Below, piece by piece: positions 2,786 to 21,909 of a stretch of 24,335 nt of DNA. Position 1 is the first letter of the stretch. Each line of letters begins with the position of its first letter. A program made the position numbers and the translations under genes. The DNA comes from a virus: positions 1 to 24,335 of the IMG/VR virus record IMGVR_UViG_3300009790_000066. One strand, written 5' to 3'. The notes under the pieces were generated by a model. The model was given only the letters and a program-made list of their open reading frames with translations. It was not told where the DNA came from and ran no database searches.

Positions 2786-4394
2786 GTGGTTCATTCCAAT
2801 TTTTTGTCTGAAATAAAAGATTCGGTATAGATGAAGAATTAAGAGCTCCTCTACCTGAAGCATCAACCCATTGTGAACTATCAGTATCCTGATAATAAAC
2901 ATTTAATCGTCCATTCTGAGAATCCCACCAGAGATCACCATCAGAAGGATTAGTTGGAGGAGTATCATCAGTAGTTACACTAGCACCACCACCAGAACCT
3001 GGAGGACCTGGAGGACCAGCAGGACCAGTTGGACTAGCACTATGTTTGATTATATAACATAAGGCATAATATCCAGGAATTACAGTACCAGCAGAAAATG
3101 CAGTACCAGTAAGTTTATTACTATAATTAGGTCCTGTTCCAACAATAAATCTATCTCTTAAATCAGGAACACCATTACCTACCCCAACAATTAGTTGTAA
3201 TGCAGTCGTAACTGGTGTAAAACCATTACATAATTGATACTCACTTGGTATATTAGATACATCCCCAGACCATGCTATGATTGCTCCTATAGCCTCAGCA
3301 CTACCACTACCCGTTGGACCTGGAGGACCTGCAGGACCTGGAGAACCTGCAGATCCTGGAGTACCATCAGAACCTGGAGTTCCATCAGAACCTGGAGGAC
3401 CTGCAGGACCTGGAGAACCTGCAGAGCCTGGAGTACCATCAGAACCATCAGAACCATCTGTGCCGCCAATATTACGTAAAGCACTAAATTTTGCTGGTAT
3501 TTCTGAAACAGTAACTGTACCAGTACCACCCATCTCAACAAAACAACCATAGTTGAAGTAATACTTATTTGTTCCGTAAATCCCACCTGATTCTTCATAA
3601 GGATCTCTTAGTGCGAACGTACATGAAGAAGTAGGGTCAGTAGGATCACAATTAGATGTTCCCATTTCAGAGGAATAACCTTTCCATTTATATGGACCTA
3701 ATCCAGTTCCATATTTGTAACTTGTATTAGTAGGGTAATATTGCTTGACCCAAACCTTTCTGCGTGGCATGTCAATGACGATATGCCAATCAGTAATAAC
3801 ATCAGTATCATTCTGGGGATTAGCCCAATTAACAGTACCACCTCCAGTATAAAAACTGTAAAGAGTATTAGTATCTCCAGCAACAGATCCATTATCTCCT
3901 GAGTTGTCATGATCAGCATTATAACAAAGCCATCTATCACTAGTTCCAGCTTGTGATCTTATATTCTCTGATATTTGACCATTACTATCAATAGTACTAG
4001 AACCATCAACTCCAACTGCATTATTATCTGATATAAACCATCCCCAATAAGCACCAGTACCAGTTGATTGTCCTGTATATCTAAATTCATATATTTTATG
4101 AAGCTCTAATTCCTGAAACTTAACATCCTTCCAATAATTTGAAGATCCATTTACAGGGAAGGTAATTGTTTGATCATTATTTGTATATACAGCAGTAGTA
4201 CTAGTTGCTGTCTTATCTACCACTGGCACATGAACACCACGGGCTGAAGAGCTTGCAGGACCAGGAGGACCAGGAGGACCAGCAGGACCTGGAGCAGATT
4301 GAATAATCCAGGTAGTCCCATCCCACTTCCATGTATAACCGTTCTCGGTGTGGGTGTCGTTATTTGAAGGACTATTTGGAAAATTTACTGCCAT
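2781..4394 (-). CDS. Collagen-like tail fibre with tail-collar domain (537 aa)
   Basis: Modules in order: the shared N-terminal module (residues 1-32, MAVNFPNSPSNNDTHTENG then WKWDGTTW); a short [12 protein letters not shown] linker; a non-repetitive beta-rich domain (about 50-310); a Gly-X-Y shaft (about 313-370) with a 24-residue internal duplication; a phage tail-collar-like domain (about 370-455: GAIIAWSG, YQLCNG, PDLRDRFIVG, YYALCYIIK); another short GPP tract; and a C-terminal segment with the [11 protein letters not shown] / GRLNVYYQD / SSQWV module shared at DNA level with 4781-6256. The protein ends NEPL. Collar domains sit in T4 short fibre gp12 and related receptor-binding fibres, so this is most likely a receptor-binding fibre. 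Its ATG overlaps the TAA of the 120-residue gene by one base (TAATG). Confidence 0.85.
   Translation of the reverse strand: MAVNFPNSPSNNDTHTENGYTWKWDGTTWIIQSAPGPAGPPGPPGPASSSARGVHVPVVDKTATSTTAVYTNNDQTITFPVNGSSNYWKDVKFQELELHKIYEFRYTGQSTGTGAYWGWFISDNNAVGVDGSSTIDSNGQISENIRSQAGTSDRWLCYNADHDNSGDNGSVAGDTNTLYSFYTGGGTVNWANPQNDTDVITDWHIVIDMPRRKVWVKQYYPTNTSYKYGTGLGPYKWKGYSSEMGTSNCDPTDPTSSCTFALRDPYEESGGIYGTNKYYFNYGCFVEMGGTGTVTVSEIPAKFSALRNIGGTDGSDGSDGTPGSAGSPGPAGPPGSDGTPGSDGTPGSAGSPGPAGPPGPTGSGSAEAIGAIIAWSGDVSNIPSEYQLCNGFTPVTTALQLIVGVGNGVPDLRDRFIVGTGPNYSNKLTGTAFSAGTVIPGYYALCYIIKHSASPTGPAGPPGPPGSGGGASVTTDDTPPTNPSDGDLWWDSQNGRLNVYYQDTDSSQWVDASGRGALNSSSIPNLLFQTKNWNEPL
2865..2957. repeat. 93-nt duplicated module, copy 1 (with 5285-5377)
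   Basis: By eye this segment matches 5285-5377 over 93 nt with nine mismatches. It encodes the [11 protein letters not shown] to SSQWV module in two different fibre genes. A shorter relative at protein level (HGELWWEDD to TSQWV) occurs in the 601-residue fibre. It looks like a domain copied between fibre genes. Confidence 0.85.
3319..3447. repeat. 72-bp period direct repeat in a collagen-like shaft
   Basis: A segment of about 56 nt beginning at 3319 recurs at 3391 with a single difference (agatcc versus agagcc). The period of 72 bp equals 24 codons, or eight Gly-X-Y triplets, so gain or loss of a unit keeps frame and triple-helix register. The near-identity suggests recent duplication or homogenisation by recombination. 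Confidence 0.85.
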
Positions 4395-4756
4395 TAGTTA
4401 GTCTCTGGTATAACTAAAAAATTATATGAGGGTTTTCTACCAAATGTTACATTTTGAACAACCCAAGTTACTCTATCACCATCAGATAACATAAGTTCAT
4501 TTGGAAAAGGATTACCTATTGATGTTATTGGTGAAATATGTTTACCAGCATAATATCCATCAAAGAGATCCCATTGCACCCAACTAGTTCCACTTGTTGT
4601 ACCGTTACCAAAACCAAATGTCCCTACGAAATTGTTTGATGCACTAACACCTGCATTAAAATATTCGGTTATAAACCTAACATTACCACCTGTATTATTA
4701 GTATAGGTAAATGATTCATTTCCTGATAAATTTCCTGTTAAAACTGTTGCTGCCAT
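4394..4756 (-). CDS. Small fibre-cassette protein, paralogue of 2333-2758 (120 aa)
   Basis: The protein begins MAATVLTGNLSGNESF and ends NFLVIPETN. It aligns along its length with the 141-residue protein two genes downstream: MAAT start, TGGN.RF, AGKHIS versus AGKWLS, FPNE versus FPTE, and the YNFLVI tail. The 141-residue copy is longer mainly through an insertion around its middle (HGSDKNSDHMYGGSSGS). No named family is recognised. It follows the 491-residue fibre gene with an embedded late box at 4778-4785 and overlaps the next fibre's ATG by one base, so small protein and following fibre are probably co-translated. Any function (fibre adaptor, chaperone or adhesin) is inferred from that pairing alone. 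Confidence 0.85.
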   Translation of the reverse strand: MAATVLTGNLSGNESFTYTNNTGGNVRFITEYFNAGVSASNNFVGTFGFGNGTTSGTSWVQWDLFDGYYAGKHISPITSIGNPFPNELMLSDGDRVTWVVQNVTFGRKPSYNFLVIPETN

Positions 4757-16609: not shown

Positions 16610-18112
16610 TTAAGTATAAGAAGTTATTAATGTTGTTAATTTTTTATATAGTAATCCATCACTACTACTTCCATTTTGAGGAATAGGAATTGATGATCCA
16701 ACAGGAAGACTACTAGATTGTTTCGACCCACTACTCATTGCTGGAAGTGGAACCATAATGGTTTTCCTAGATTTAGGTTTAATCTCCTCAAAAATACTTT
16801 GAGTAGTCTTTTTAAGAGTTTCAAACTCAGAACTTTTTACAATAGGTTCTACTTCTTCCGCAAGTCCTTCTAATTCTGGTCTTATGGTTTCCCCAACATC
16901 AGACATAGTATCTTTAATAATATCAAATATTCCACTTATATCACCACCAATATCAATCTCTTTAGAAATATTTCTAGCAGTATTTTTAAGATCATTAAAT
17001 TCAGAACTTTTTACGATGGGTTTAATATCATCTGCCATTTGTTTCATTGTAGTGAATAATGACTCATAAACATGTCCATTTCTTTTTTCATCTTCTAATA
17101 CCTTTTTAATATCCCCTAAACCAAATTCTTCTAATCCACCTTCAGTAGAAGTAATATTCATTTTATTCAATGAAGAAAGGAATGAAACTCCCAATTTATC
17201 AACTGCTTTCTTAGACATAACAAATTCACCAGCAGTCAATCTTGCTGGTACATTATCAATTCCACCTGGTCCTTTAACAATACCACCATCAGCATATTCC
17301 ATTACCTCATTTTCTTCTCCTCTTATATCCCCATACATCCAATACATCACATTATCCCACCATGATTTATCTTTTGGTGTTAATGATTCATCAACAGTAA
17401 GTTCATCAGAATCTTCAGGATTTTCTCCAGATTCTACTGTCTCAGCATCCTTACCGAATTTTTTCTCAAGTTTTGTTAATTCAGTATCAATGTCGCTACC
17501 TTTAGCTTGGAATTGATTACCAACATCACTAACTTGCATACTAAATTGATTAAGTTCAAGATTAGTAGATTCTAAATCTTTTTTTATCAAATCTTGAGAT
17601 TCTTGAAATTTTGCAGAATTTAAAGTTTCCTGAGTCTTATCTAATTCTATACCAAAAGCCTGAAGTATATTACCAATTCCATTAGACCAACCATTAAGAA
17701 CCTCAATAAGACGTCCAATCCTTTTTACTAAAGCATCAATACCTTTAAGTATAGCAGGTAAATTTTTAATCAACCAACCAAGTAAAGTTATAGCAAAAAT
17801 ATCCAATACCCTTCCCAAAAATCCCTTTACAGAATTTTTCACAGTTTTTCCAACTTGAGTGAATATACTACCTGGACTAGAAGCTTCTACTTCTTCCTCC
17901 TTTTTTCTTCTTAATAAAGTTTCATTCCTTTTTCTAAAAAACGAAGATCCTCTATCTAAAGCCTTAGTTTTTTCTAAATTATCTCTATTAATATCTTTTG
18001 CAATATTCCTAGCTAAAACACTACTCCTAGCCATACTAGCTGAAATAGAAGTCATAGACTTAGATATATTTCTAAGACTTGTAGATGAACTTAAGAGAGA
18101 TTGGATTGCCAT
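16610..18112 (-). CDS. Tape-measure/baseplate hub-like protein 2 (500 aa)
   Basis: The N-terminal 95 residues are Ser/Arg/Lys-rich and helical. A hydrophobic segment follows at about 105-125 (FAITLLGWLIKNLPAILK). Then come a long coiled-coil-like region and, at about 275-320, ADGGIVKGPGGIDNVPARL with AGEFVMSKKAVDKLG. The latter is a motif recurrent in phage tape-measure proteins (GG.V.GPG..D.VPA.L..GE.V). The C-terminal part is acidic and helical with two similar PIVKSSEF segments (EIDIGGDISGIF between them), ending in a Ser/Pro-rich tail. The hydrophobic segment is very like the one in the preceding gene, so the two are probably paralogues or a split tape measure. In T4 this position holds gp28/gp29, and which one this matches cannot be told from sequence alone. 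Confidence 0.75.
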   Translation of the reverse strand: MAIQSLLSSSTSLRNISKSMTSISASMARSSVLARNIAKDINRDNLEKTKALDRGSSFFRKRNETLLRRKKEEEVEASSPGSIFTQVGKTVKNSVKGFLGRVLDIFAITLLGWLIKNLPAILKGIDALVKRIGRLIEVLNGWSNGIGNILQAFGIELDKTQETLNSAKFQESQDLIKKDLESTNLELNQFSMQVSDVGNQFQAKGSDIDTELTKLEKKFGKDAETVESGENPEDSDELTVDESLTPKDKSWWDNVMYWMYGDIRGEENEVMEYADGGIVKGPGGIDNVPARLTAGEFVMSKKAVDKLGVSFLSSLNKMNITSTEGGLEEFGLGDIKKVLEDEKRNGHVYESLFTTMKQMADDIKPIVKSSEFNDLKNTARNISKEIDIGGDISGIFDIIKDTMSDVGETIRPELEGLAEEVEPIVKSSEFETLKKTTQSIFEEIKPKSRKTIMVPLPAMSSGSKQSSSLPVGSSIPIPQNGSSSDGLLYKKLTTLITSYT

Positions 18113-18116
18113 AATA

Positions 18117-19658
18117 TTATAACGGTACTACCTGATAATGTTTATATGCAAGAAAAACATAATTATTAGATTCATTTCTAGCAATTAAACTTGGAATACC
18201 ACCAGCACCAGTAGAAGCTGCTACTGTAACTGGTTCTTCTTCATTACCAGATGATTGTAATGCAGGAATTGTAACAATCTCAGGTGAATCGTCAGGAACA
18301 TTTTGCTCAACAGTTGTAGTATCTTTCTTAACAGGAGTTATATTAGCCATTGCAATCTTCTCACCATCTCCAGTGATCCCTAAATTAGGAGTGGCATCAG
18401 ATACAGGATCTTGGAATATAGATCTTCTAGTCTCCGCATCTACTACATTATTAAGAGTTTTATCAGTCTCTTTAGTATTAAAGGCAACAACTTCACCCTT
18501 GGTTTTAGTCTCTACAGAAGATACTTCATCATTTTTACCATCTTCCTCCGTTACATCTACATCTATGGAATTTTTCTTGTCATCACCAGTTATTGCATCC
18601 TGTATCGGATCTCTTACATTACTACCAATATTCAATAATCCAAAATACAATAAAGCTTCAAGTAATCCTCTTGCCACAGGATGTTTAACTTTTGAAACCA
18701 TTGGTCTAGAAAGAGATGCAAGACCAAGTCCTGTAATTAGATCAATACCAGCTTCCCACCAAGTATCAACACCAGTTAAAACATCCATTCCTTCTTGGAT
18801 TCCAACAACAGTAGTAGTTACACCTGATGGTTTAGCAAATTTACTACCTGGTTTTACATTAGGTTGTGGATTATTATTCTTTTTTGATTGACCAAACCAT
18901 CTTAAACCACCGCCACCAGGAGTTTTAGCACCACCAAAATTAAGTCCTAAAGCAAGAGAAGTTGCAGTTACTAAAAGTTTTCCTAATGATGCTATTGGTT
19001 TTAAAAATACTCCTCTAGCAGCAAATCCAGCAAGGGTTAATGCTAATTTACCCAAAATCAACTGAAATCCAGTTATAGCAGCACCTACTAAAAGGAAAGT
19101 AGTACCAGATATAGCAAGACCTTTTATTATATTATTAGTTATCTCTTTTACCTTATCTTGATTCCCCTCAGAATTTGCTTTTAATAAATCAAATACATTA
19201 TCTATCAACCAACCACCTAATAAAATACCAAAAAGACTTGTTAATTTACCTAATGAAAAATTAGTTTTCTCTGCAATCTTTTTAACAGGAGAAAGTAATG
19301 CACTTTGAATTTTTGATTCTATTGCCGCTTCCTTTCTTCCCCTTAATCCCTGTTCTGCTAATAATTGTTCTTGCCTAAGTCTTTCTGCCTCCCTTTTTCT
19401 CTCTAAAAGACTGCTATTAGTTAAATTAACACTTATAACTTCTAAAGTTTTAGTTAATATAACATTCTGCTTATTAATATTATCAAGTTGCGTAGAAATA
19501 TTAGATAATAGAATAGAATTTCTATTGATTAACGCATTACTATTCGCTTCACCACCATCTTGCTTCTGACCAGTCGGAGATCTAAAGAAACCAGGAGACA
19601 AAGATCTCCTAATACCTCTTAAATTTCCTAATATTGGATTATTAACTGGTTCAGCCAT
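18117..19658 (-). CDS. Tape-measure/baseplate hub-like protein 1, gp29 candidate (513 aa)
   Basis: Residues 45-130 are heptad-like and charged (SNISTQLDNINKQNVIL, RKREAERLRQEQLLAEQ), then LFGILLGGWLIDNVFDLLK (about 142-160). A strongly hydrophobic Gly/Ala/Leu stretch follows (about 178-245), as in tape-measure proteins that end up crossing the host membrane. The C-terminal half is hydrophilic with acidic, low-complexity segments. It is the first gene after gp26 and the frameshift ORF, the place a tape measure has next to its chaperones. It starts 8 nt inside the end of the 57-codon ORF. T4 gp29 is the tape measure and hub component, and this is the best counterpart. Tail length versus the sum of the two tape-measure-like genes was not assessed. 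Confidence 0.75.
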   Translation of the reverse strand: MAEPVNNPILGNLRGIRRSLSPGFFRSPTGQKQDGGEANSNALINRNSILLSNISTQLDNINKQNVILTKTLEVISVNLTNSSLLERKREAERLRQEQLLAEQGLRGRKEAAIESKIQSALLSPVKKIAEKTNFSLGKLTSLFGILLGGWLIDNVFDLLKANSEGNQDKVKEITNNIIKGLAISGTTFLLVGAAITGFQLILGKLALTLAGFAARGVFLKPIASLGKLLVTATSLALGLNFGGAKTPGGGGLRWFGQSKKNNNPQPNVKPGSKFAKPSGVTTTVVGIQEGMDVLTGVDTWWEAGIDLITGLGLASLSRPMVSKVKHPVARGLLEALLYFGLLNIGSNVRDPIQDAITGDDKKNSIDVDVTEEDGKNDEVSSVETKTKGEVVAFNTKETDKTLNNVVDAETRRSIFQDPVSDATPNLGITGDGEKIAMANITPVKKDTTTVEQNVPDDSPEIVTIPALQSSGNEEEPVTVAASTGAGGIPSLIARNESNNYVFLAYKHYQVVPL

Positions 19659-19824
19659 TTTGTTGCTGTTTTAGATTTTCTTCTTCAATATATTGATGTA
19701 GAAGAGATAAATATATTTCCCTTTCCCAAGGCATCATATTTTCTAGCTCTGTTAAACTATATTTATGGTGTTGCATCAAAGCAAAATTAATTTTATAGTA
19801 TGACTCAAGATCTTCATGAGACAT
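19651..19824 (-). CDS. Small ORF after gp26, probable -1 frameshift extension (57 aa)
   Basis: The ORF reads MSHEDLESYYKINF, then HHKYSLTELENMMPWEREI, and ends IEEENLKQQQNG. The 'MMPWEREIY' patch is a feature I associate with small tail-assembly proteins encoded next to tape measures. It lies in the T4 gene 51 position (after 26). There is no Shine-Dalgarno-like sequence before its ATG at 19824, and that ATG falls inside a predicted hairpin. The -1 frame is open from the end of gp26 straight through this ORF (joining residues H-V-S), so it may be made mainly as a gp26 fusion of about 298 residues. Termination-reinitiation is the alternative, because the gp26 TAA is only 2 nt upstream of the ATG. 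Confidence 0.75.
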   Translation of the reverse strand: MSHEDLESYYKINFALMQHHKYSLTELENMMPWEREIYLSLLHQYIEEENLKQQQNG

Positions 19825-19839
19825 ACTTACATGAAAAAA
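19798..19839 (-). promoter_or_regulatory. Candidate programmed -1 ribosomal frameshift signal
   Basis: On the minus strand the last codons of gp26 are AGT TTT TTC ATG TAA. T_TTT_TTC (19839-19833) is an X_XXY_YYZ slippery heptamer in the correct frame. Six nt later begins a stem-loop: GTATG (19826-19822) pairs with CATAC (19802-19798), a T-T mismatch follows, then CTCA (19820-19817) pairs with TGAG (19807-19804) around a 9-nt loop. A -1 slip bypasses the TAA at 19829-19827 and reads CAT GTA AGT ATG in frame with the 57-codon ORF. Heptamer, spacer length, stem-loop, stop position and open -1 frame all agree. Confidence 0.7.
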
Positions 19840-20546
19840 CTCTGCAAACCCTCCAAAACTATTTTATTTTCTTTTTTAGTATTTGGATTCATTACTTTCA
19901 CAGTATGAGTCATTTTAGGCATAGTATCAAAGAATTTTTCAATTTGCTTAAATTGCTGAGAACTAAGAGATTCTATAAACTCTGATAGTTCTTTATCTGT
20001 ACAATCGGATCCTGCCCAAGATTCCTCTTCAGAATAGATCTGATCAATACAAGATGCTATTAATTTAAATGTGTCATCTACATTTAAATTCTCAGTTGTA
20101 CTAAAATTAGTCTTGATAAATTCTTCCATTGATGGATATCTCATCCTCAAAGTTAGTACATCATCCAATTTAATATCAGGAGAATGTTCTTTATCAATTT
20201 TAACTTTTATATCATCCAAATTAATGGTAGTTGGAACCTTAGTTTCTCCATCATCAGTACAAGTAATCATTACTTCTATTTCTTCACCAACAGATTTACC
20301 TCTGATGTTTAAAAATAGATATTCAATATCAAATGTTGCTAACTTATCAACTTTAATTCCTTTAGTTAAAATACAAGATTCAAGAACATCTTTAATAGCA
20401 TTTGCTATTTGATTATTATCTTGACTCTCCATAGCTATAATTAAAATCTTCTCTTCTTTAACTAAAAAAGGTCTGAATTTAATCTTCTTCTTACTTGATG
20501 GTATAACCATCTCATAAGTAGGAGTCGAAATTTTTGGTAAAGGCAT
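19827..20546 (-). CDS. 26: Baseplate hub assembly protein gp26 (239 aa)
   Basis: The start MPLPKISTPTYEMVIPSS, followed by KKKIKFRPFLVKEEKIL and a helix AMESQDNNQIANAIKDVLES, is the signature of the T4 gp26-like baseplate family. These proteins are needed for assembly of the central hub. A domain of strands with paired acidic residues follows, then a helical C-terminal part (YPSMEEFIKTNF, LSEFIESLSSQQFKQIEKFF). T4 gp26 is 208 residues, so this one is slightly longer. The stop TAA lies just after a slippery heptamer, and a -1 shift would append the 57-codon ORF. With the tape-measure genes directly downstream, the pair looks like the G and G-T chaperones of lambda-type tails, although that equivalence is inference. 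Confidence 0.85.
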   Translation of the reverse strand: MPLPKISTPTYEMVIPSSKKKIKFRPFLVKEEKILIIAMESQDNNQIANAIKDVLESCILTKGIKVDKLATFDIEYLFLNIRGKSVGEEIEVMITCTDDGETKVPTTINLDDIKVKIDKEHSPDIKLDDVLTLRMRYPSMEEFIKTNFSTTENLNVDDTFKLIASCIDQIYSEEESWAGSDCTDKELSEFIESLSSQQFKQIEKFFDTMPKMTHTVKVMNPNTKKENKIVLEGLQSFFM

Positions 20547-20595: not shown

Positions 20596-21438
20596 CTAAT
20601 TAACATCAAACTTATACCAAACATCAGAATCTGGTGGAATATTTAAGAAATCTTTAGGTAATTCTGGTGTCCATGTAAATGTTCCAGGTGATTCATTAGT
20701 AATTTCTTGAAGAACCTGATCATTATTAGCAACTCCTGGATTAAGAGCAGCAACCTGATTTATATTACCCTGTCTATTTCCAAATCTTCCAGATGCTTCA
20801 CTAACAAAATTCTCATTATTTCCAGACCTTTGTGAAAAAGAACTTGCCTTTCCGCAAATATATCTCTCATAAGCAAAAGCACAGCTCGCCTTTAATACTT
20901 GTGATCTTTGGTATTGTACTCTTGTAGAATCTAACGCAAGAGGATATAACCCTTTGAAATTATATTCCAAAGATTGTCTATAATTTTTTTCAAATTTAAC
21001 TATTTTAGTTGATTCTGATCTATATTGTTCAGGATAATTCAGTTTAAAATTATAAGCACTTTCTAATGGATTAGACGAAGATCCTCCTGTAATATACTCC
21101 ATCCAATGTTCTAAAAACTTAAGTGCTTTATATTCATTATCAACATAAAACTCCAATTTAATCCTAGTAAAATTTCTTGTATGTGGTATCGTCTCAGTTA
21201 CACCTTGATATTCACCAGTTACAGTTTCAGTTGCAAACGTTGATCCTGGTAAACTAGCACCACTACAAAGTAATCCTATATCATTTGTATGAAATCTATA
21301 ATCTATACCCTTACCCTGCAAATGATCCCTCAATTTACTACTAGGAATACCAAACTGAACCAAGTAATGAGAAGTTTGTGCAACATTCTGAAATGTAGGT
21401 AATATCTGTGATATTTTCTTTGGAATTGGAGCAGACAC
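20596..21438 (-). CDS. 54: Baseplate-tail tube initiator, gp54-like (280 aa from GTG)
   Basis: The reading frame is open up to an ATG at 21510, but that would overlap the divergent gp4 gene by 39 nt and translate the promoter region as MRKSWIILSFI and so on. I choose the GTG at 21438-21436, which gives (V)SAPIPKKISQIL and sits directly after the minus-strand late box. The body shows the tail-tube-like pattern shared by T4 gp54, gp48 and gp19: GASLPGSTF, TRNFTRIKLEFYVDNEYKALKF, a LEHWMEYITGGSS helix-turn, and YNFKGLYPLALDSTRVQYQ strands. The C-terminus ends DVWYKFDVN. T4 gp54 (320 residues) joins baseplate hub and tube. The position, beside gp26 and opposite gp48/gp53, fits. Distinguishing gp54 from another tube-like protein rests on context. 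Confidence 0.72.
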   Translation of the reverse strand: MSAPIPKKISQILPTFQNVAQTSHYLVQFGIPSSKLRDHLQGKGIDYRFHTNDIGLLCSGASLPGSTFATETVTGEYQGVTETIPHTRNFTRIKLEFYVDNEYKALKFLEHWMEYITGGSSSNPLESAYNFKLNYPEQYRSESTKIVKFEKNYRQSLEYNFKGLYPLALDSTRVQYQRSQVLKASCAFAYERYICGKASSFSQRSGNNENFVSEASGRFGNRQGNINQVAALNPGVANNDQVLQEITNESPGTFTWTPELPKDFLNIPPDSDVWYKFDVN

Positions 21439-21446
21439 TCTAAATA
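21439..21446 (+). promoter_or_regulatory. T4-type late promoter box (TCTAAATA) for the plus-strand operon
   Basis: TCTAAATA begins one base after the GTG of the gp54-like gene. Transcription would be expected to start about 6-7 nt downstream, leaving a leader of about 20 nt before the gp4 ATG at 21472. It is one arm of a 9-bp perfect inverted repeat (tctaaatag 21439-21447, ctatttaga 21464-21472) with a 16-bp spacer. Confidence 0.65.
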
Positions 21447-21464
21447 GATGTATTATATCATTTC

Positions 21465-21472
21465 TATTTAGA
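21465..21472 (-). promoter_or_regulatory. T4-type late promoter box (TCTAAATA) for the minus-strand block
   Basis: The other arm of the inverted repeat carries the same 8-mer on the minus strand and overlaps the first base of the gp4 start codon. It is 27 nt upstream of the GTG at 21438. It is the only good late box upstream of the gp54-like to gp5 gene series, so it probably drives at least the hub genes. Confidence 0.65.
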
Positions 21473-21909
21473 TGGCTTATAAAGGAAAGTATTATCCAAC
21501 TTTTCCTCACAAATATAAAGGTGATCCTACCAATATAATATTTCGATCACTATGGGAAAGGAAATTCATGGTCTACTGTGATAAGAATGCAAACGTATTA
21601 GAATGGGCAAGTGAAGAAATAGCAATACCTTATGTGTCTCCCGTAGATCAAAGATCTCACAGATACTTTCCAGATTTTTACATGAAGATAAAGGAAACTG
21701 ACGGTATTATAAAAAAATATGTTATTGAGGTTAAACCTTTAAAACAATGTAGTCCACCTAAAAAACCAAAACGACAAACTAAAGGATATATACGTGAAGC
21801 ATTTGAATATGCTAAGAATCAAGCAAAATGGAAAGAAGCAAGAGAATGGTGTGCAGATCGTCAATGGGAATTTAAAGTAGTTACTGAAAAAGAACTAGGA
21901 ATTAAATGA
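21472..21909 (+). CDS. 4: Head completion protein gp4, PD-(D/E)XK nuclease fold (145 aa)
   Basis: The motifs are in the expected order: IIFRSLWERKFMVYCD (about 20-36), WASEEIAIPY (about 45-54), HRYFPDFYMKI (about 63-73) and YVIEVKPLKQ (about 83-92). FPDF with the acidic residue, then EVK, is the PD-(D/E)XK nuclease core, and the early Glu in LWE fits the auxiliary position. T4 gp4 (also gp50/65) is a virion protein of about 150 residues required for head completion before tail joining. The match in length and motifs makes this one of the firmest calls here. It is the first gene of the plus-strand operon and overlaps the next gene by 4 nt (ATGA). Confidence 0.9.
   Translation: MAYKGKYYPTFPHKYKGDPTNIIFRSLWERKFMVYCDKNANVLEWASEEIAIPYVSPVDQRSHRYFPDFYMKIKETDGIIKKYVIEVKPLKQCSPPKKPKRQTKGYIREAFEYAKNQAKWKEAREWCADRQWEFKVVTEKELGIK

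Follow-up and report, generated by a model that had tools for sequence, protein, structure and literature searches.

Phage lambda makes its tail-assembly chaperone (TAC) in two forms, gpG and gpGT, the longer of which is produced by -1 frameshifting at the heptamer G_GGA_AAG. A 2016 review considered the G-T frameshift to be conserved in long-tailed phages with the exception of T4 (PMC5009743). The TAC genes of T4-like phages are the subject, as indicated by its title, of a study by Vladimirov, Gautam and Davidson (2022; Virology 566:9-15, doi 10.1016/j.virol.2021.11.003; cited in PMC10885494), which is credited in another article with poly-T slippery sequences in the TAC-N genes of these phages (PMC12846349). 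As far as can be told from the title and from this crediting statement, the phage group and the device are the same as those analyzed here, and the core finding is already known because the -1 frameshift device of T4-like TAC genes was reported in that publication. Its abstract is said to assign TAC-N and TAC-NC of T4 to two distinct genes, 26 and 51, respectively, and, reportedly, to describe frameshifting in several other T4-like groups. For the TAC gene of the Vandenendeviridae and Andersonviridae, the relevant passage of PMC12846349 describes a -1 frameshift at the poly-T motif GTTTTT, the ORF that follows having been wrongly annotated as an independent gene. On this description, the poly-T device is similar to the one considered below, although the motif and the phage families differ. 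Three elements of the present analysis are possibly new: the covariation observed in a hairpin that follows the slip site, the number and range of loci surveyed, and a relative (L154) from which this site has disappeared.

The DNA analyzed, referred to as the window, is a virus record of 24,335 bases from a marine cyanophage related to T4. Among named phages, those closest to it are P-SSM2 and P-SSM5 of Prochlorococcus (76% DNA identity over 72% of the compared segment). All genes of the locus are on the minus strand. A gene encoding a tail tube protein (20596 to 21510; PF23849, E = 3.9e-20; PHROG 45, tail tube, E = 5.4e-37) is located just upstream from a gp26-like gene (19827 to 20546) encoding a protein of 239 amino acids in the zero frame (PF12322, E = 3.9e-75; PHROG 150, E = 1.2e-81). 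The -1 frame extends over 60 codons and a stop codon (19651 to 19833), and the extension matches PHROG 634 (baseplate hub assembly catalyst, E = 2.3e-30) and the C-terminal part of PHROG 150 (E = 1.1e-10). The extension includes a gp51-like ORF of 57 codons (19651 to 19824), which is annotated as a separate gene, gene 51, in relatives. This small ORF overlaps by 8 nt a gene encoding 513 amino acids (18117 to 19658), a tape-measure candidate for which searches of Pfam-type and PHROG profiles returned no family match. The following ORF, of 500 amino acids (16610 to 18112), displays weak matches to several PHROG tape-measure families (best named match E = 2.5e-8, residues 269 to 326). The gp26-like gene is therefore flanked by the tail tube gene, directly upstream, and by this tape-measure-like ORF, two genes downstream. 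Both downstream ORFs are candidates for the tape measure, and the assignment is not certain for either of them. In another part of the window, two ORFs located among the tail fibre genes (2333 to 2758 and 4394 to 4756, both on the minus strand, 141 and 120 amino acids, respectively) had no PHROG match.

On the minus strand, the 3' end of the gp26-like ORF reads CAG AGT TTT TTC ATG TAA. Direct reading of this sequence reveals an in-frame heptamer, T_TTT_TTC (19833 to 19839), that has the X_XXY_YYZ form of a -1 programmed ribosomal frameshift signal, and a 6-nt spacer (19827 to 19832) made of one sense codon (ATG) and of the zero-frame stop codon TAA (19829 to 19827). The spacer is followed by a 29-nt hairpin (19798 to 19826), GTATG.CTCA...TGAG.CATAC, comprising nine pairs around one T-T mismatch, with two further inner pairs predicted. 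The hairpin begins 6 nt downstream of the heptamer, within the interval of 5 to 9 nt required of a stimulatory structure, and is a probable stimulator of frameshifting. A 40-nt stretch containing it has a folding energy of -12.2 kcal/mol (z = -4.1), and a z of -4.35 was obtained for a 66-nt stretch, none of 200 shuffles being equally stable. The -1 frame is open across the gp26 stop codon (FFHVSM...) and runs into the 57-codon ORF, thereby generating a fusion of 298 amino acids. The initial annotation had described the heptamer, the spacer holding the stop codon, the mismatched stem and the open -1 frame leading into the small ORF, all of which we found at the positions given above. It had also placed the ATG of the small ORF inside the stem, with no ribosome binding site, and the upstream bases indeed contain no convincing site. 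The main ORFs of the window harbor 61 in-frame X_XXY_YYZ heptamers, only two of which give access to a -1 frame extending more than 40 nt beyond the stop codon of the ORF. Both are located at the gp26/small-ORF junction, and none elsewhere in the main ORFs. The second heptamer, GGGTTTG (19854 to 19848, minus strand), precedes T_TTT_TTC by 12 nt and leads into the same -1 frame.

The locus very probably encodes a tail-assembly chaperone of the lambda G/G-T type, made in two forms by -1 frameshifting. This is the device that the initial annotation had proposed for genes 26/51, and the proposal is supported by the conservation of the signal, by compensatory changes in the hairpin, and by missing start codons and ribosome binding sites in relatives. 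Most ribosomes would stop at the TAA codon past the heptamer and release the short form (TAC-N, gp26). We infer that a fraction of the ribosomes slips one base back on U_UUU_UUC, aided by the hairpin, and passes the stop codon in the -1 frame, which would lead to synthesis of the long form (TAC-NC, 298 amino acids) harboring the gp51-like C-terminal domain (TAC-C). The efficiency of slippage would set the ratio of TAC-N to TAC-NC. If the two forms act like lambda gpG/gpGT, the tape measure protein would be covered by numerous copies of the short form and a small number of the long form; these would attract the subunits of the tail tube and then leave the particle. The heptamer of the window differs from that of lambda, and no sequence similarity was detectable between lambda gpG/gpGT and the proteins of the window. 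The likeness to a chaperone of this kind, that of HK97, is at the level of the predicted fold only.

The slip site, whose conservation at the junctions of related phages the initial annotation had proposed as a check, was found to be highly conserved. In all 80 close relatives, the heptamer was identical, and the one-codon gap, the stop codon, and the outer stem arms were identical in place. A wider set of 340 related loci was assembled from five further query proteins and from annotated isolates. The heptamer was kept in 334 of these loci, the -1 frame being open for 30 codons or more in 325 of them and ending at the contig edge in the other 9. Five of the remaining six loci run off the contig, and the sixth (L154) is an in-frame fusion. 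Among unique junctions, the open -1 frame comprised 56 to 73 codons, and the distance from the heptamer to the stop codon was 3 nt in 190 of 229. Following reduction of the loci to 61 lineages sharing less than 70% amino acid identity, U_UUU_UUN was present in the same phase in every lineage (TTTTTTC in 45, TTTTTTT in 10, TTTTTTA in 5, and TTTTTTG in 1). Elsewhere in these genes, 62% of the Phe codons are TTT and 35% of all codons end in T, so that a Phe-Phe site would be slippery by chance with a naive probability of about 0.22 per lineage; the resulting figure of 0.22^61 takes the lineages as independent and is indicative only. The same pattern was present in the isolates P-SSM5, P-SSM4, S-CAM1, phiN3, Cr30, Vibrio nt-1, pf16, Melnitz-2, S-CRM01, S-PM2, S-SKS1, P-HM1, S-N03, Cronobacter S13, Yut2, and OLIVR6. 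The range of isolates covers the Kyanoviridae and other cyanophages, the Straboviridae (Vibrio nt-1 and Cronobacter S13), Emdodecavirus, pf16, Caulobacter Cr30, and phages of Stenotrophomonas, Agrobacterium, and Methylophilales. The pattern is also present in a Desulfovibrio phage. Scans with the gp26 proteins of Vibrio nt-1 and Caulobacter Cr30 retrieved only two loci each.

The hairpin is less widely distributed. For the 40-nt stretch starting 4 nt past the heptamer, the mean folding z was -1.42 over the 61 lineages, versus means between -0.46 and 0.09 at nine control offsets (p = 2.6e-6 for the difference). Folding was uneven, since z was below -2 in only 30% of the 61 lineages, and we therefore rejected the notion of a universal hairpin. 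About half of the lineages have a weak hairpin or no stable one, indicating that the structure is not needed everywhere; it is a feature of the clade of the window and of some others, not of all. Covariation was assessed in the clade of the window, with 94 unique junctions and changes counted on a gp26 tree. The pair 19819-19805 is T-A in 42 junctions, G-C in 24, and A-T in 14, with double changes from one Watson-Crick pair to another on about nine branches. The two positions were paired in 85% of the sequences, as compared to 40% in shuffles (maximum of 55%). Changes on one side of the pair affect a third codon position and are silent; those on the other side affect a second position and exchange Glu, Ala, and Val. 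These changes are explained by selection on RNA pairing and not by selection on the protein. The other pairs of the hairpin are mostly invariant and provide little covariation information. The initial annotation looked to a conserved stem with covariation, and this held for the compensatory changes at one pair in the clade but not for the presence of the hairpin in all lineages. We tentatively propose that the clade keeps a stimulatory hairpin under selection for pairing, in spite of the resulting Glu/Ala/Val changes in the long form, and that other hairpins may have arisen at this position in distant lineages. These structural aspects are perhaps unreported.

Alternatively, the small ORF could be a gene of its own (gp51), with termination-reinitiation at the ATG located just past the gp26 stop codon allowing its translation. 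An ATG is indeed present at most 12 nt from this stop codon in the window and in about a third of the lineages, and most database annotations treat gene 51 as a separate CDS (P-SSM4, S-PM2, P-HM1, S-SKS1, P-SSM5, and others); among the annotated records of the frameshift type that were examined, none joins it to gene 26. However, the head of the conserved domain, taken as the first 15 codons of the extension, is devoid of ATG in 36 of the 61 lineages and devoid of any ATG, GTG, or TTG in 23 of them. Ribosome binding sites are also rare, a Shine-Dalgarno match of at least 4 nt being associated with 3 of 25 small-ORF ATGs in relatives versus 42 of 60 gp26 starts. Reinitiation moreover leaves the invariant phase of the heptamer unexplained, and T4 has the same domain fused within one ORF. 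Together, the missing starts and the rarity of Shine-Dalgarno sequences indicate that the small ORF is best read as a -1 extension, and we consider reinitiation to be very unlikely.

Slippage of the RNA polymerase on the T6 run, rather than of the ribosome, is slightly less probable still. Addition of one U to part of the mRNA would lead to an identical protein, and the run is homopolymeric, reaching T7 to T8 in some relatives. Nonetheless, six Ts are short for transcriptional slippage, the X_XXY_YYZ phase is always kept, and a downstream hairpin displaying compensatory changes at a fixed distance fits a ribosomal stimulator. The break between the frames could also be a sequencing indel in the T run, the true gene being one continuous ORF. 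The initial annotation had designated continuous ORFs in relatives as the sign of such an error, and a single one was found, in L154 (1 of 340 loci). The same break is present in at least 334 independently assembled loci and in many isolate genomes, which led us to reject this explanation, whose probability is negligible.

Ribosomal frameshifting at the gp26/small-ORF junction thus remains the preferred reading, and comparison with T4 revealed how the two forms are related to gp26 and gp51. The alignment of T4 gp26 with the gp26 profile spans the entire T4 protein (hhalign E = 9.1e-18), which terminates at the slip-site Phe-Phe. The N-terminal part of T4 gp51 also aligned with the gp26 profile (hhalign E = 8.2e-6), and its C terminus aligned with the small-ORF profile (hhalign E = 7.7e-5). 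The relationship between the small ORF and T4 gp51, which the initial annotation had suggested checking, is thereby supported for the C-terminal domain. An alignment in which short forms were combined with C-terminal fragments proved to be misaligned and was left out. Both T4 proteins belong to PF12322 and PHROG 150, the same families as the gp26-like protein of the window, and cover positions 14 to 235 (gp26) and 13 to 280 (gp51) of the 282 positions of PHROG 150. The TAC-C domain is conserved among relatives and is fused in T4 gp51. These profile alignments indicate that T4 encodes the short (gp26) and long (gp51) forms as two genes, which are divergent. Since the Phe-Phe codons of T4 gp26 are TTC TTT preceded by G, the T4 gene is devoid of the slippery run. 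This defines the place of the T4-like group, in which most relatives frameshift whereas T4 itself has two genes. Gp51 of cyanophages and vibriophages was described as lacking the first 200 residues (Sullivan et al., 2010; PMC3037559), an apparent loss accounted for by gp51 being the -1 extension of gene 26. Gene 51 of marine T4-like records should be annotated as such.

In Citrobacter phage Moon (L081), the depositors annotated a 'GT-like fusion' of genes 27 and 28 as a tape measure chaperone (record positions 116606 to 118244). This annotation conflicts with the evidence for genes 26/51, T4 gp27 being a known baseplate hub protein, and it was rejected as a precedent since it joins genes 27/28 rather than 26/51.

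The fusion in L154 (positions 1501 to 2391 of IMGVR_UViG_3300049043_000112, a 236-kb contig) is a continuous gp26-gp51 ORF of 297 amino acids, the only one in the 340 loci. At the junction, only five Ts remain in the run, and 2 nt are missing in comparison to L162-type sequences. L154 either carries a natural permanent fusion, with the long form as its sole product, or reflects an error of assembly. Unless the latter applies, the absence of the slip site suggests that the short form is perhaps dispensable in some phages. The C-terminal part of the L154 fusion was poorly predicted in a structural model (pLDDT of about 42 to 73).

An AlphaFold2 model of the window gp26 was obtained with a pLDDT of 89. 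Comparison of residues 1 to 88 of the model with solved structures by VIA-align gave 2ob9, the HK97 tail assembly chaperone, as the top match (Z = 7.8), followed by the chaperone structures 3fgx (Z = 7.6) and 3klu (Z = 7.2), values of 7 to 8 being within the range reachable by unrelated folds. Foldseek alone detected no match of the model to solved structures below an E of 0.5, and no significant hit to a solved structure was obtained when gp26 and the small ORF served as queries in sequence profile searches. Since the Foldseek result was not significant, the VIA-align match supports, but does not prove, a TAC-N fold of the HK97 gp13 type. Together with the homology of T4 gp26 and gp51 to the proteins of the window, this N-terminal match favors the link between the T4 hub-assembly proteins and the tail-assembly chaperones that was put forward in the initial annotation. 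The fourth-best match to the N-terminal domain was 5ir0 (Z = 4.7), all later matches having a Z of at most 4.0. This structure is that of a protein of unknown function (ORF19) from a PICI-like element of Vibrio cholerae, which, judging from the predicted model, might be a satellite-encoded mimic of the tail chaperone.
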